Shown in pieces: positions 43,336 through 56,296 of a stretch of DNA of 64,000 nucleotides. Each line of letters starts with the position of its first letter. Within the stretch, counting starts at the first letter, position 1. Origin of the DNA: Alphaproteobacteria bacterium (GTDB taxonomy: Bacteria > Pseudomonadota > Alphaproteobacteria > TMED109); assembly GCA_022824395.1 (NCBI GenBank), contig JAJDZX010000101.1, positions 1 through 64,000 on the forward strand. The letters are read 5' to 3'. The position numbers and the translations under genes are program-made. The notes under the pieces are model-generated. The model had not been told where the DNA came from and searched no databases. It saw only the letters and a list, made by a program, of their open reading frames with translations.

Positions 43336-43605
43336 GCGGGCCTGCGTACTCTCTGGCTCAGGCCGGAAGCGGTCAACATGTTTACAACGCTTCCCCGGTC
43401 GGAAGGCGCGACGCGGGTGTTCCCCGAGGACCTGGCCGCGACAAGTCTCTACACGTTCTGGGTCGGTGTCCGCGCGGACGCCTGGCCGCACGGCGTGCAC
43501 CTTCACGATACCTGGCACTCCTACGCCTCACGGGGCGTCATGAACGGCGTCGGATTGACCACTGTGGGCAAACCGCTTGGGCGTCGCAAGCGTGCCGCCA
43601 CCGTC
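43333..43605 (+). pseudogene. Tyrosine recombinase, C-terminal fragment
   Basis: The frame reads LWLRPEAVNMFTTLPRSEGA then VFPED and HLHDTWHSYASRGVMNG with TTVGKPLGRRKRAATVN, the catalytic-domain end of a phage-type integrase. The HxxR box is damaged (HDLRHS is HDTWHS, so the arginine is lost) and the final GHxxxxTTxxYAHL with the nucleophile is degraded to GRRKRAATVN. No N-terminal part is present. The fragment is fused in frame to the following lipoprotein frame but clearly separate. Confidence 0.65.
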
Positions 43606-43707
43606 AATACCGGGACGTGTTCTACGCACTCAAACGGTCATCTGCACATATTCGAGTGTAGTACCCTCAGTGGCTGGAGGTTGACCGAATCCCGAGGAGA
43701 TCGATCG

Positions 43708-44736
43708 ATGCGGATGGCCGGCTGGTTTCCCGTCGCCACTGTCGCGTTGGTGCTGGCCGCCTGCGGCGGGGGCGGGGGTGGCGACGGCACGCCGCCTTTG
43801 ACCGAGCCACCGGCCACCGGGACCGAACCTCCGGTTGCCACCCAGGTCCGCGTCATCGATGCGGACACCGTGGACATCGACGGGACACGCTATCGCCTCT
43901 TTGGCATCGATGCGCCCGAGGCCAGCCAGACGTGCCGGGCATGGGGCCGGACATGGGATTGCGGGGCGGCGGCCACGGAAGCGCTGATGTCGCGTGCCGC
44001 CGGTATGGGCTGTACTGGCAGTGACACCGACCGTTTCGGTCGGGTGCTCGGGGTTTGTTCCTCGGGCGGGGATGATCTGAACGCCTGGCTCGTGGCGAAC
44101 GGTTGGGCGCTGGCCTATCGACAATTCGCAGACGACTATGTCAGCGAGGAAGAACAGGCCCGGTCGAACAAGCGCGGGATCCATCGCGGTGAGTTCATCG
44201 AGCCCTGGAGCTGGCGGCGCGGCGAACGGATCACCGGGGAAGACACGTTCACCGCGATCGCTTCAGACGTCCTGGATGTCGAGGCGCTCGCCGATCGAAT
44301 GCTGCGCGGCGACCTTACCGGCGTTTATGGCCAATGGATGGACGACAGCGTATTCGTCATGGTGGATGACGCCGTGGCGGTGTCCTTCGGCGGCTCGCCC
44401 GGCAACACTCCGAGTGCGCTTGGCGGCGCGGTCTGGCGAGGCGCAGTCGTGGGCGTTGACATCCGGACCCGAGACCGGATCAAAGGCCGCGCGGTCATCG
44501 ACATCGACGAATTTGCCCGCCCGGACGTCGATGTCGCATTCACCGGACTTGCGGACGCCCACGGCCGCGCCCGGGCCGATCTCCGGTGGGAAGACATCCC
44601 GGTGTCGCAAGGCTCTTTTCGGGCGCGGGACGCGGATGGCACGATTGAAGGCCGGTTCTACGGAAGCGAACATCGGGAAGTCGGAGGCATCTTCGAGCGA
44701 GATCACCTGACCGGAGCTTTCGGCGCTTCACGCTGA
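43708..44736 (+). CDS. Lipoprotein with thermonuclease (SNase) domain and C-terminal TbpB-like domain
   Basis: 342 residues. A lipoprotein signal ends LVLAAC, then a Gly/Pro linker. Residues about 48-175 are a staphylococcal-nuclease domain: VIDADTVDIDGTRYRLFGID supplies Asp21, Arg35 and Asp40 equivalents, APEAS the glutamate, and DRFGRVLG the second arginine. The C-terminal 160 residues end GRFYGSEHREVGGIFERDHL then GAFGASR, the hallmark of TbpB-like/Slam-type surface lipoprotein beta barrels. A surface-anchored nuclease is predicted. ATG 43708 follows GAGGAGA. Position after an integrase scrap suggests transfer. Confidence 0.8.
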   Translation: MRMAGWFPVATVALVLAACGGGGGGDGTPPLTEPPATGTEPPVATQVRVIDADTVDIDGTRYRLFGIDAPEASQTCRAWGRTWDCGAAATEALMSRAAGMGCTGSDTDRFGRVLGVCSSGGDDLNAWLVANGWALAYRQFADDYVSEEEQARSNKRGIHRGEFIEPWSWRRGERITGEDTFTAIASDVLDVEALADRMLRGDLTGVYGQWMDDSVFVMVDDAVAVSFGGSPGNTPSALGGAVWRGAVVGVDIRTRDRIKGRAVIDIDEFARPDVDVAFTGLADAHGRARADLRWEDIPVSQGSFRARDADGTIEGRFYGSEHREVGGIFERDHLTGAFGASR

Positions 44737-44907: not shown

Positions 44908-47475
44908 CTACCAGCGCATGTTCGCGGTTAGCCCGACCCGGTGCTCCGGCGGCCCGTCGTTGTTCGCGGGCTCCCACCGCGTCCCCTCGAGCCTGAGGTG
45001 GAACGAGACACGCTTCGTCTCCGCAAGCCCGAGCCTCCAGCCCAGCCGCCAGTCGCGGCCGGTTTCGGAAAGCCCGAGTCCCAGCTCCGGCGTCCCCGTG
45101 AAGTGGCCGCCGGGCAGCGCCATCCCGTAGCCCACGCGTGCGTCCAGCCGCCCGCCTTCCTGGCCGGCCGATGCCGCTCCCGGAGTGAGGCCTGTCGCCC
45201 ACAGCCGCTGCACGCCGCTGGCCGTCTGGCCCCACGCCGGCCGCACGCTGAGTGCGAGCCCCCTGCCCGCGGCGCCCGGGGCGAGCCGCACCAGCCCGCT
45301 CACGCCCCACTCCTCGTCGTCACCGCTGTGGCCCAGCAGCGTCCGGGCCCGCCACGCGACGGTGAGACCCGTCGCCTCGTTGGCGTAGCGCAGACCGCCC
45401 CCGACCTCGACACCGTTCCCGGTCTCGCCATCGCCGACGTCGTTCCGCATGCCGATCTCGACCGAAGGCGTGACCGTCGCGCCCGACGCCAGTTGCCGGG
45501 TGTGGTTCCCCTCGATCATCAACCGCTGCCGGCCGGCCTCAAGGGTCGCCGCCGCGATCGTGCCCGAGCCATCGATCTCCGCCTCCGTGAAGGCGGCGTC
45601 GCCCTTGGCCTGCAGCCGGGTCGTGCCGCCTGCGATCAGCACGTCGCTGGTCAGCAGCGTTCCGCTGAGGCCCGCCGCCGCCATCCGCTGCGTCAGGTCG
45701 CTCGCCTGCGTGCCCGCCGCATCCTCGATCTCGACCTCGCCCGAGCCATGGCCCACCGTGGCCCACACACTCATGCCGGCCGGTGCCTGCCAGCCCACGT
45801 AGGGATTGATGCTCGTCACGGTGGTCGTGAGCTTGCCCGTCGACGCGCCGGAGGCCGTGTAGTCCACGGTCCCGCGCGACCGGCCGACCGACACGCCCGC
45901 CAGCAGGTCCGCGCTCAACCGCGTATCGATCCCCAGGTGGGCGCTCAGCACGTCGCCGTCGTAGTCGACGCTCCCGGGACTGCCGCCGGAGAGGTTACGG
46001 TAGTCCCCGCTGCCCCACAGCGTCAGGTTCCCGAAGGGGCCGCCGTCTCCGGTCTCCGCCATGCCGAGCGGCAGCATGAAGGACGAGTCGGCGAGCAGCC
46101 GCGCGGCATCGAACGTGCCGTCCTCGAGCGCCTGTCCGTTGGCCGTCAGCACGTCCGCGAGCGTCGAGGCGCCGCCCAGGCTCAACTCCCCGGACGACGA
46201 CGCGCCGGCGGCCGCCTGGCCGATGCGGCCCGAGACGGCATCGACCGTGCCCGCCGTCATGGCCCGCATGACCTGGGGAAGGATGGACTCGACGACCGTG
46301 TCGTGGTCCCCCGCGACCTCCTCGGGCGCGGTTCCGTAGAAGCCCGAGCCGACGATGAGGTTGATCGGGATCGCGCTTCCGTCCGGCCTCTGGACGTGAC
46401 CGGTGAACACCCGGGCGTACCCCACCTTGGGGATGTCGGCGCGGTCGGTGTCGTCGGTGGGATCGTCCCAGTAGTACTCGAGGAAGCCGCCTTCCGGGCT
46501 GCTCTTCGCCGCAGCGATGACCTGCGGCAGAACGAACTCTCCGGTCACGGCGTCTCGAACGGTCGGCACCAGAGGCCGAAGCTCGAATCTGTCCGGGAAC
46601 GCTCCGTGAAAGAGGATCACGTTGCTGTTCAGGTCCAGGACGTAGAGGTACACGGAACCGTGCCTCCAGGGTCCGCTCGGATCACGCAGGGCGATCCGCG
46701 CTTTCGACGAAGCGGCCGGATCGCCGCTCTCCTGCAGCGCGAGAACATATTCCCCCGCCTGCGTGACGAATGCCTTCAGAGTTGCCCGGTCTACGACGTC
46801 CCTGGCCGTAACGGCCGGTTCGATGTGTTCGATCGTTTCTTCGGCCAGATGCGATTCGCCGAGATCGAATCCGGCGAGCATCACGAGCGGGGCTCGAAAA
46901 TTGGCCGATAGATATGCGAAGGCGTATCCAGAGGCGCCTGGAACACTGGGGATGCTGAACGAGGCGCCATCCCCGGCTGCGGCAGCAGCGAAAGCGGCGA
47001 AGAAAGCCGCGGGGTCGGCCAATTCGGCCGGGTTGATGCCCAATGCCTGAAGTATCGCTCCATAAATCAAGGGGTGGAGTTGCCGGCCCGACAAGGCCAT
47101 GTCCTTCGCGTGGACGAGAATCCTGCCGTCTGGCGTCAGCTGCACAAGGTAGGTGGATCCCGACCGATAGGGGCTCTCTTCTTGCCTGACCCGACATCCA
47201 AGGTACGCCACTTGCTCCAAGCTCGTTCCTGACCCGATCTCGTTATTTTGGTCTCTCACGGCCAGCGCGAAGTCCATCAGGTTTGCGCGCCCCTCTTCCA
47301 CATCCTGCGCTGCCACGTGCAGGTCCGCCGGCGGAGCCACACCGGCCGGGAGCGGGCAGGCGTCCCGCATCTGTGCCAGGGCCGGGTGTGCCCCAAGAAC
47401 CAAGCCGAACAGCAAGAGCAGGCTGACAGCAAGAAATGAGGACCCTCCCCCGGATTTCTTCGTCGTGGCTTTCAT
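44908..47475 (-). CDS. Autotransporter with Cache-like passenger domains
   Basis: 855 residues. A signal peptide (helical LLLLFGLVLGAHPALA) is followed by two Cache-like segments: about 45-140 (TYLVQLTPDGRILVHAKDM) and about 230-400 (HGSVYLYVLDLNSNVILFHG), with an Ala-rich spacer between. From about residue 480 the repeated beta strands (LTLWGSGDYRNLSG, SINPYVGWQAPAGMSVWATV) build an autotransporter barrel ending in aromatic W (TANMRW). Cache domains normally sense small ligands in chemoreceptors and kinases, so this pairing is unusual. ATG 47475 was chosen because the signal peptide starts there; the longer frame is rejected. Flanked by gaps on both sides. Confidence 0.82.
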   Translation of the reverse strand: MKATTKKSGGGSSFLAVSLLLLFGLVLGAHPALAQMRDACPLPAGVAPPADLHVAAQDVEEGRANLMDFALAVRDQNNEIGSGTSLEQVAYLGCRVRQEESPYRSGSTYLVQLTPDGRILVHAKDMALSGRQLHPLIYGAILQALGINPAELADPAAFFAAFAAAAAGDGASFSIPSVPGASGYAFAYLSANFRAPLVMLAGFDLGESHLAEETIEHIEPAVTARDVVDRATLKAFVTQAGEYVLALQESGDPAASSKARIALRDPSGPWRHGSVYLYVLDLNSNVILFHGAFPDRFELRPLVPTVRDAVTGEFVLPQVIAAAKSSPEGGFLEYYWDDPTDDTDRADIPKVGYARVFTGHVQRPDGSAIPINLIVGSGFYGTAPEEVAGDHDTVVESILPQVMRAMTAGTVDAVSGRIGQAAAGASSSGELSLGGASTLADVLTANGQALEDGTFDAARLLADSSFMLPLGMAETGDGGPFGNLTLWGSGDYRNLSGGSPGSVDYDGDVLSAHLGIDTRLSADLLAGVSVGRSRGTVDYTASGASTGKLTTTVTSINPYVGWQAPAGMSVWATVGHGSGEVEIEDAAGTQASDLTQRMAAAGLSGTLLTSDVLIAGGTTRLQAKGDAAFTEAEIDGSGTIAAATLEAGRQRLMIEGNHTRQLASGATVTPSVEIGMRNDVGDGETGNGVEVGGGLRYANEATGLTVAWRARTLLGHSGDDEEWGVSGLVRLAPGAAGRGLALSVRPAWGQTASGVQRLWATGLTPGAASAGQEGGRLDARVGYGMALPGGHFTGTPELGLGLSETGRDWRLGWRLGLAETKRVSFHLRLEGTRWEPANNDGPPEHRVGLTANMRW

Positions 47476-53589: not shown

Positions 53590-53880
53590 AATGTATGGAT
53601 TACGGCCTGTTTCGGACCGATTGTTGGCGTGCCGGACATCACCTGACAGGAGTAGCTTGATGTGGCCTGAAGGCCTCCATAGCATGATTTATCCTCGTAA
53701 TACGGTGCTTTATTCTGGCCCTTTCGTTTGGAACGGCATATCCCGGGCAGGCGGAGCGCTTCGCCATGCGTGGCCATGCCTGGCCAGCAGAGGCCAGGAG
53801 TAACGCTCCAGTCGGTTGCGGTACGATTACGGTTACGGTAACGTTTCCCCGCCTACCGGAACCGAACGAAACGCTTCGCC
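53590..53880. other. Island left boundary: junction with livM and pre-integrase region
   Basis: LivM homology stops near 53590. The next 290 bp have no gene. They contain GGCCTGAAGGCC (imperfect palindrome near 53663), a GGTAACG box at 53837-53843 preceded by repeated TTACGG, and CGCTTCGCCATGC twice (about 53758 and 53872) as a 13-bp direct repeat flanking this block. These are plausible integrase binding or attachment elements. Confidence 0.5.
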
Positions 53881-55065
53881 ATGCCCGCCTGTGCCCCCGT
53901 CAAGCTCACCAAGCGCGCTGTCGATGCGCTCTCCGTGGAAGCCGGCGACGCCGTCGTCTGGGACCGCGACCTGCCCGGCTTCGGCATCCGGGTCTATGCC
54001 TCGGGGCGCAAGGTCTGGTGCGTCCAGACCCGCGGGCCGGCGGGTGGGCCGAAGCGCGTGGCGCTCGGGCCGCACGGCAGCATCACGGCCGACGACGCGC
54101 GGCGCAAGGCGGTTGAGGTCATCGACCGCATCAAGCAGGGCCTCGATCCGGTCCCGCCGCCTCCGGTGCCCGCGCCCACCGTCGCTGATCTCGCCGAACG
54201 CTACATGGAAGCCCATGTCAGGGTGAACTGCCGCCCAAAGACGGTCGAGACCTTCGGGCGGGTGGTGCGGCTCTACATCGTGCCGGAGCTGGGCGGGTTG
54301 AAGCTCTCGGAAGTGGACCGTCCGCACGTCTCGGCGCTGCACCACAAGATGCGGGGCAAGCCGTATCAGGCGAACACGACGGTGATGGTACTGGCCAAGA
54401 TGTTCCGGCTTGCCGAGGCCTGGGGCATGACGCCGCCACGCCGCAATCCGTGCCGCTCGATCCGGTACTACAGGGAGACGCGGCGCGAGCGGTTCCTCTC
54501 GCCGGAGGAGTACCGCAGGCTGGGCCGGGTGCTCGACGGGGCCGAGGCCGACGGGTCGGTGTTCCCGACGGCGGTGCCGGCACTCCGGCTGCTGCTGCTG
54601 ACGGGCTGCCGCAAGAACGAGATCGTGACGCTGAAGTGGGACGACGTGGACCGCACGGCGGGCGAGCTGCGGCTCACGGACGGCAAGTCCGGATGGCGGA
54701 GCGTGCCGCTGACGCCCTCGGTCGAGCACGTGCTTGCGTCCATCCCCCGCATCGAGGGCAACCCTTGGGTGATTACGGGCCGGAACCCCGGCGACCACCT
54801 GAAGAACCTCGACGCGACCTGGCTCAGGCTTCGCAAGCGGGCGAAGCTCGAAGACGTGCGGATTCACGACGCCCGCCATTCCTACGCCTCGCGGGCGCTG
54901 GCGCTTGGCGAGGGGCTCTCGATGATCGGGGCGCTGCTCGGTCACGTCAAGGTGACCACGACTGCGCGCTATGCGCACCTCGCGCGCGAAACCGAGAAGG
55001 CGTCCGCCGCGAAGGTGGGCGGCAGCATCGGCACCGACATCCTGCCGTGCGCCGACGCGGCCTGA
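53881..55065 (+). CDS. Tyrosine recombinase (phage-type integrase) 1
   Basis: 394 residues. N-terminal DUF4102 arm-binding domain (LTKRAVDALSVEAGDAVVWD, FGIRVYASGRKVW), core-binding domain, and catalytic domain with first Arg (LLLTGCRKNEI), HDARHSYAS (His-xx-Arg) and LLGHVKVTTTARYAHLA with the nucleophilic Tyr. All catalytic residues are present, so it should integrate/excise the element. ATG 53881 follows GAAACGCTTCGCC. Recombinase 2 begins 16 nt downstream. Confidence 0.93.
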   Translation: MPACAPVKLTKRAVDALSVEAGDAVVWDRDLPGFGIRVYASGRKVWCVQTRGPAGGPKRVALGPHGSITADDARRKAVEVIDRIKQGLDPVPPPPVPAPTVADLAERYMEAHVRVNCRPKTVETFGRVVRLYIVPELGGLKLSEVDRPHVSALHHKMRGKPYQANTTVMVLAKMFRLAEAWGMTPPRRNPCRSIRYYRETRRERFLSPEEYRRLGRVLDGAEADGSVFPTAVPALRLLLLTGCRKNEIVTLKWDDVDRTAGELRLTDGKSGWRSVPLTPSVEHVLASIPRIEGNPWVITGRNPGDHLKNLDATWLRLRKRAKLEDVRIHDARHSYASRALALGEGLSMIGALLGHVKVTTTARYAHLARETEKASAAKVGGSIGTDILPCADAA

Positions 55066-55081
55066 CAGGGAGGACAGGGCG

Positions 55082-56296
55082 ATGGCAAAGCTCACCACGA
55101 CGACGATCTCGAAACGCACGGTCGAGGCGCTCGCCGTCGAGAAGGACACCGTGTTCTGGGACTCCGAGCTCTCGGGCTTCGGGATCCGGGTCTATCCGTC
55201 GGGGCGCAAGCAGTATGTCGTGCAGACACGCGCGCTCGGCAGGGCCGCGAAGCGGGTGACGGTGGGCCGCCACGGCATCGTCACGGCGGAGGAGGCGCGG
55301 CGCCGGGCGGCGCTCATCATCGCGCGCATCAAGGCGGGCGAGGAGCCGGTGCCTCCGGCGCTGGCGCTCGCCGACGGCCCGACGGTGGGCGATCTCGCAC
55401 GGCAGTGGCTCGACGAGCATGTTGCAGTGCGCTGCAAGCCGACCACGGCGGAAATGTACGCGCTGATCGTGAACAAGCACCTGCTGCCCGCGTTCGGGAA
55501 GGTCCCGGTGCTGGCGCTCGACCATGTCAGGGTGACAGGACTGCACCATTCCCTTCGGGCCACGCCGTCGATGGCGAACCGGACGGTGGACGTGCTCTCG
55601 CGCATCTGGAACGCGGCGGAGGACCGGGGGCAGCTGCCGGAGGCGAGCAACCCCTGCCGGCTGGTGGTGAAGAACCGGGAGCGCCGGCGCGAGCGGTTCC
55701 TGAGCGCCGACGAGTTCCGCCGCCTCGGGAAGACCCTCGCCGAGGCCGGAACCCGCAAGGGCGTCTCGGTCCATGCCGTCGCCGCGATCCGGTTGCTCCT
55801 GCTCACCGGTTGCCGACGCAACGAGATTTTGACGCTGCGCTGGCGGGACGTGGACCTGGGGGCGCGCGAGTTGAAGCTCGGCGATTCGAAGACCGGCGCG
55901 CGCACCGTGCCGCTCTCGCCGGAGGCGGCGGACGTGCTCGCGAACACCCCGCTCGTCGAGGGCAACCCGTATGTCATTCCGGGGAAGCTCAAGGGCCGGC
56001 GCATGCGCAACCTGAACGGCCCGTGGGAGCTGATCTGCAAGCGCGCGAAGATCGAGAATGCGCGGCTTCACGACTGCCGCCACAGCTTTGCGTCCAGGGC
56101 GCTCGCGCTCGGCGAGGGGCTGCCGATGATCGGCAGGCTGCTCGGTCACACCCAGGTGGAAACCACCGCGCGCTATGCGCACCTGGCGCAGCACTCGGTG
56201 CGCGAATCCGCCGTCCGCGTGTCGGACAGCATCGCCGCCGACATTCTCGGGGACTACCGGGGCGGGGACGGCTCCCCGGCCGCTACAGCAACTTGA
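55082..56296 (+). CDS. Tyrosine recombinase (phage-type integrase) 2
   Basis: 404 residues, paralogous to recombinase 1 with the same domain order: ISKRTVEALAVEKDTVFWD and FGIRVYPSGRKQYVV, then LLLTGCRRNEIL, HDCRHSFASRAL and LLGHTQVETTARYAHL with intact Arg, His-xx-Arg and Tyr. The two proteins are similar throughout yet clearly diverged. ATG 55082 has GGGAGGAC upstream, 16 nt after recombinase 1, so they form one operon. The 3' end overlaps the convergent coiled-coil gene by 14 bp. Confidence 0.93.
   Translation: MAKLTTTTISKRTVEALAVEKDTVFWDSELSGFGIRVYPSGRKQYVVQTRALGRAAKRVTVGRHGIVTAEEARRRAALIIARIKAGEEPVPPALALADGPTVGDLARQWLDEHVAVRCKPTTAEMYALIVNKHLLPAFGKVPVLALDHVRVTGLHHSLRATPSMANRTVDVLSRIWNAAEDRGQLPEASNPCRLVVKNRERRRERFLSADEFRRLGKTLAEAGTRKGVSVHAVAAIRLLLLTGCRRNEILTLRWRDVDLGARELKLGDSKTGARTVPLSPEAADVLANTPLVEGNPYVIPGKLKGRRMRNLNGPWELICKRAKIENARLHDCRHSFASRALALGEGLPMIGRLLGHTQVETTARYAHLAQHSVRESAVRVSDSIAADILGDYRGGDGSPAATAT

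Follow-up and report, generated by a model that had tools for sequence, protein, structure and literature searches.

A two-Cache passenger on a predicted autotransporter-like barrel and its relatives in sponge-associated bacteria of many phyla

In the usual view, Cache domains provide transmembrane receptors with their input half. The closest described modules are the single-Cache sensors of sCache_2/dCache_2 chemoreceptors, such as PscD-SD (5g4y), Adeh_3718 (4k08), the Vibrio parahaemolyticus sensor (4exo/2qhk) and TlpB (3ub6). The second system of comparison are the type Va autotransporters, such as BrkA, EspP, Hbp and EstA, of which the classical barrels have 12 strands. For PscD it was shown that Tyr90, His103, Tyr143 and Lys156 hydrogen-bond the carboxylate ligand (PMC5062169). 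Eukaryotic-like and adhesion proteins of the ankyrin, fn3 and cadherin families are enriched in sponge metagenome-assembled genomes (MAGs) and were reported to be laterally transferred between symbiont lineages (PMC8163846). Cache Pfams were found to be enriched in sponge-associated Thaumarchaeota, for which a role in host recognition was proposed (PMC7848895). The family described here resembles the former group in its occurrence in sponge MAGs and in its lateral transfer, and the latter, which is also enriched in sponge symbionts but archaeal, at the level of the Cache Pfam. It is not mentioned in two sponge MAG papers, in which the word "cache" is absent (PMC9531527; PMC8163846), and in the literature library searched, "Cache domain" and "autotransporter" occur together in a single paper, which concerns something else.

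The window analysed is a stretch of 64,000 nucleotides of alphaproteobacterial DNA (GCA_022824395.1, contig JAJDZX010000101.1). An open reading frame on its minus strand starts with the ATG at 47475, ends with the stop codon at 44908-44910 and encodes 855 residues, in agreement with the coordinates of the preliminary description. From the N- to the C-terminus, a Sec signal peptide is followed by two Cache-type modules in tandem, a linker helix and an autotransporter-family barrel. The features are as follows:

44908..47475, minus strand: whole gene, 855 residues, two-Cache passenger and outer-membrane barrel (reading frame and translation, Pfam, full-length same-genus homologues)
47371..47475, minus strand: Sec signal peptide, residues ~1-35, ending HPALA-Q (sequence; motif GLLVLAGV..ARPALAQ conserved in relatives from other phyla)
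46840..47328, minus strand: Cache-like module 1, residues ~50-212 (half-to-half hhalign, homology to L022 and L050, AlphaFold, alignment columns)
46330..46839, minus strand: Cache module 2, residues 213-382, with intact carboxylate pocket (dCache_2, AlphaFold, PscD pocket comparison)
46426..46650, minus strand: pocket residues Y276 (codon 46648-46650), H290 (46606-46608), Y334 (46474-46476) and K350 (46426-46428) (alignment columns, PscD contacts, PscD alignment)
46210..46326, minus strand: long linker helix, residues 384-422, at the passenger-barrel junction (AlphaFold; conserved LPQVMRAMTASTVDAVS motif)
44911..46026, minus strand: C-terminal barrel, residues 484-855, with Trp as last residue (PF03797, AlphaFold/DSSP, Foldseek)

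Full-length homologues of the protein are present in the same genus, and selection on the family is purifying (dN/dS 0.11-0.39, with wider pairs limited by dS saturation). Searches of NCBIfam and, by phmmer, of the PDB with the 855-residue protein alone gave no match. The pairing of a transmembrane helix with a receptor signalling output module is absent from the protein and from the related loci examined. We consider it somewhat better than an even chance that it is a carboxylate-binding protein which sponge symbionts share by lateral transfer and display at their surface, probably serving host or matrix recognition or capture. The protein would be exported by Sec and its barrel would insert into the outer membrane, both steps resting on homology; the barrel would then display the two Cache modules at the cell surface, where module 2 would bind a carboxylate-bearing ligand of a class suggested by its residues. 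As there is no membrane helix and no signalling domain, the protein would act in surface binding or recognition, i.e., capture, adhesion or host recognition, and not as a receptor. Within sponges, the passenger would have been swapped among phyla and refitted onto each phylum's own surface anchor. The biological use, be it host or matrix recognition, capture or adhesion, is the least certain part of this reading.

The assignment of two Cache-like segments between signal peptide and barrel, made originally by inspection, was confirmed by profile, homology and structure prediction. In Pfam, dCache_2 (PF08269) matches residues 270-357 of the whole protein below the cut-off (E=3.3e-5) and the isolated module 2 just above it (E=3.5e-6, 26.8 bits, cut-off 26.5), while module 1, i.e., the N-terminal half of the passenger, alone gives no Pfam match. 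By hhalign, one half aligns with the other over 72 columns (probability 96%, E=3.6e-9), and this duplication, together with intermediate relatives, identifies module 1 as a Cache module. Among these relatives, the distant homologue L022, whose genome belongs to this genus, aligns over the entire passenger length and contains two sCache_2 stretches (E=2e-17) as well as a barrel. L050:2709-3947 matches dCache_2 with E=3e-29, and L073 (minus strand) matches sCache_2 in five stretches (E=2e-28). The L050 single-Cache protein matches by sequence the solved sensors 2qhk/4exo (E=1.2e-15), 4k08, 5g4y (PscD) and TlpB. Module 1 additionally contains Cys94, which is part of a conserved Cys40/Cys94 pair. 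AlphaFold, supplied with an alignment of the window protein and the fetched loci, predicts for residues 40-420 two alpha/beta modules with identical order of elements (pLDDT 86.4, pTM 0.81), in each of which a long N-terminal helix leads into a PAS-like sheet, as in the Cache superfamily. A beta-helix passenger, which would have spoken against the original assignment, is not seen in this model. Foldseek of the passenger against the PDB returned mostly PAS/LOV/Cache-type folds, the matches being weak (best E=2e-3); as none was below E=1e-3, the Cache fold is divergent. Thus, the fold class is supported by several lines of evidence, yet the modules are divergent members of it.

Module 2 shares with the single-Cache sensors the fold topology, the motif order Y-x-aromatic, H, Y-x-W/F, PKxxY and all four hydrogen-bonding residues of PscD. 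An alignment of PscD with a relative gives Y-x-W, H, Y-x-W, K-x-x-Y as the order of motifs, by which Y276 corresponds to Tyr90, H290 to His103, Y334 to Tyr143 and K350 to Lys156. Among 87 alignment rows, Y276 is conserved in 86, and H290, Y334 and K350 are each conserved in all 87. The sandwich formed in PscD by Trp92 and Trp145 is altered, with Tyr278 in 76 of the 87 rows and Phe, Trp or Tyr at position 336. Module 1 keeps the equivalents of the first Tyr and the His (Y109 and H122) and is without those of Tyr143 and Lys156. As module 2 retains the pocket of single-Cache chemoreceptors, its ligand is most likely a short carboxylate or the carboxylate group of a larger host or matrix molecule. 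The carboxylate contacts are conserved in ordinary single-Cache receptors too and may in part have a role in folding. That module 2 retains four contacts while module 1 has lost two speaks for selection acting on the pocket. In contrast to the single-Cache receptors, the window protein has no transmembrane helix, HAMP, MCP or kinase part and its two modules follow one another after a cleaved signal peptide and are borne by an outer-membrane barrel.

The passenger alignment, when scanned against 84,980 species genomes, revealed 209 related stretches, of which the best 80, corresponding to 78 distinct loci, were retained. All 78 carry bin labels in the style of sponge metagenomes (jk18x, p16x, RHO, COS, IRC, CO, SB06xx, Plut, EF100, bin52), the habitat being read from these labels and from two papers. 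The labels p16x, SB06xx, Plut, EF100 and bin52 we take to derive from sponge projects, Plut being unsure. The jk18x bins are from Caribbean Ircinia sponges (PMC9531527), and the RHO, COS, IRC and CO labels fit the sponge host species of the second study (PMC8163846). The best loci fall into at least eight phyla, i.e., Pseudomonadota, Gemmatimonadota, Latescibacterota, Acidobacteriota, Chloroflexota, Binatota, Myxococcota and Nitrospirota, and one further relative is titled Aminicenantes. Among 385 alphaproteobacterial genomes sampled, only 5 gave strong matches (E<1e-20), four belonging to the protein's own genus, and so did only 2 of 251 genomes in a Chloroflexota sample that included the query genome. 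Twenty carrier genomes have between one and 12 places each.

The anchors of these passengers differ. Apart from an autotransporter-family barrel C-terminal to the passenger, as in the same-genus homologue L022, the Gemmatimonadota and Latescibacterota have a tail of ~180 residues that contains FlgD_ig (E=6.9e-8) and, below threshold, Por_Secre_tail (L031), often in tandem gene arrays. In Caldilineaceae nothing follows the passenger and a lipobox-like signal precedes it, and L099 (Dehalococcoidia) ends in a C-terminal hydrophobic or transmembrane tail. In Bryobacterales the passenger is lengthened by several more Cache modules, four loci (L044, L046, L059, L060) combine four modules with Big_2 and a barrel, and in some relatives the passenger is free-standing. 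No kinase, HAMP or MCP/chemoreceptor module was found in the related loci examined. That one binding part occurs with several different anchors in the cell envelope speaks for an extracellular role, and these alternative anchors, together with the sister passengers on related barrels, suggest that the passenger is displayed at the surface. The preliminary description had suggested an unusual ligand-binding surface protein, which remains the best reading since signalling modules are absent from the related loci examined; it was incomplete in that the passenger spans many phyla and anchors and is confined neither to autotransporters nor to this genome, and surface exposure is probable. Separately, L050:1-4613 from Gemmatimonadota contains, upstream of a full family member, an array of short secreted one- or two-Cache proteins with neither anchor nor signalling part.

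The same architectures are open to a second interpretation, which we consider unlikely although it deserves serious attention, namely that the protein is a structural adhesin or homotypic contact protein, in which the reused Cache fold provides a stable module at the surface, with the pocket residues persisting as a relic. Relatives in which many Cache modules succeed one another, without a barrel and with Big_2/Ig-like spacers, resemble adhesin stalks, and related barrels of the same genome bear fn3, SRCR, Calx-beta and cadherin-like passengers. A relic is difficult to reconcile with a His, a Lys and both Tyr residues that are exact in 86-87 of 87 rows, all the more as module 1 has lost two of the four contacts.

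The relationships among the passengers do not follow the phyla. The passenger tree intermixes phyla, with 19 changes for eight groups where seven is the minimum, and an AU test rejected holding the Gemmatimonadota rows together (p-AU 4e-56), to which paralogy can contribute. This disagreement between tree and phyla implies that the passenger was exchanged between phyla by lateral transfer. Within the genus the passenger evolves faster than DnaK (dN 0.024 vs. 0.003), whereas across phyla and in the same genomes passenger identity (60-71%) equals that of DnaK (61-68%). Signal peptides, which normally change fast, are similar across phyla (mean local score 41 vs. 18 for shuffled sequences). Several carrier contigs are 200-640 kb long, which argues against mis-binning. 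Low cross-phylum dS was dropped as evidence of transfer since DnaK values are similar, reflecting saturation under codon bias, and the amino-acid comparison was used instead. No relatives were found in viral_contigs and plasmids, so that carriage by phages or plasmids is unsupported.

A Cache surface-binding family that is widely shared among many phyla, occurs in one type of animal host and sits on each recipient's own anchors would point to a common host ligand. It is a standing question how very different symbionts recognise sponges and remain there; through the conserved pocket, one answer can be tested directly. Sponge glyconectins carry pyruvylated or acidic glycans (PMC7828597). A bolder version of the preferred reading, which we regard as improbable, is that the passenger is a Cache-based carboxylate lectin and pan-phylum recognition module of the sponge microbiome, reading a host carboxylate mark such as glyconectin glycans as a common "home" tag.

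The C-terminal domain is predicted to be an autotransporter-like barrel larger than the classical type. PF03797 matches residues 486-683 (E=1.1e-6, 29.1 bits, cut-off 26), covering profile positions 1-206 of 255 and thus the first ~200 barrel residues. Foldseek with the full model returned mainly barrels, among them the domains of BrkA, EspP, Hbp and EstA, with a TM-score by target that reaches 0.6. The autotransporter architecture proposed initially has all its parts, i.e., signal peptide, N-terminal passenger, PF03797 barrel and the terminal aromatic Trp855, and with its linker helix it is like that of type Va autotransporters. In contrast to these, the passenger is a Cache alpha/beta structure instead of a beta-helix, and the barrel has ~370 residues and, by DSSP on the AlphaFold model (global pTM only 0.49), 18 predicted strands instead of 12. 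Calx-beta, fn3, SRCR, He_PIG and cadherin-like passengers sit on homologous barrels of this genome and support a display function. The strand count would also suit a Cache part that stays in the periplasm as N-terminal domain of a large barrel of the ordinary kind, e.g., sensing or gating an outer-membrane channel: an even number of strands leaves both barrel ends in the periplasm, the global confidence of the model is modest, and PF03797 matches just the first 206 of its 255 positions. We judge this decidedly improbable, as the genome's related barrels bear giant adhesin-type passengers (fn3/SRCR/cadherin-like), the barrel follows on a long helix in autotransporter fashion, and the passenger also occurs in Chloroflexota, which are not known to have an outer membrane and would offer no such periplasm.

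Three observations concern the barrels themselves. The 18 predicted strands at 44911-46026, despite the autotransporter profile match, may denote an enlarged class of autotransporter barrels. In the own genome (G000:C91), L126:9777-15467 (minus strand) encodes a protein of 1897 residues whose fn3, SRCR (PF00530, E=2e-10) and Calx-beta domains sit on a homologue of the barrel at 44911-46026, SRCR being an animal-immune-type domain that is here part of a bacterial surface protein. The 3' ends of L024 and L026 (genome G408), which have different passengers, contain an identical stretch of 141 bp at the passenger-barrel junction, and L131 and L132 (genome G313), also with different passengers, an identical contig-end stretch of 55 bp at this junction; this suggests near-identical barrels common to paralogues, i.e., passenger swapping or gene conversion. 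Apart from weak similarity to designed repeat proteins and to one lectin, regarded as chance, a PDB profile search with the barrel matched nothing.

That the protein captures and concentrates C2-C3 carboxylates for uptake in a nutritional role is very improbable: its pocket is identical to that of monocarboxylate sensors and a gene for a Peripla_BP_6 binding protein (branched-chain amino-acid type) lies directly upstream on the same strand, but the only conserved neighbours across the 78 loci are an unspecific ABC-ATPase cluster (13 of 78) and lineage-specific synteny, so that no conserved transporter neighbour is established, and a surface site lacking a delivery route would be inefficient. 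As a general partner, a TbpB-like neighbour was considered and rejected, since it was confined to both copies in this genome and, by a strict motif, was not seen at the other 78 loci. These two genes ending in a TbpB-like barrel domain, at 43378-44736 (plus strand) of the window and at L002:1951-2742 (minus strand), adjoin both Cache-protein genes of this genome; the window copy matches PF01298 at the 26-bit cut-off and is fused to a staphylococcal-type nuclease, and the L002 copy is below the cut-off. Further along the window, at 53842-56293 (plus strand), two consecutive reading frames resemble tyrosine integrases of the DUF4102 type, as judged by eye from the starts of their translations.
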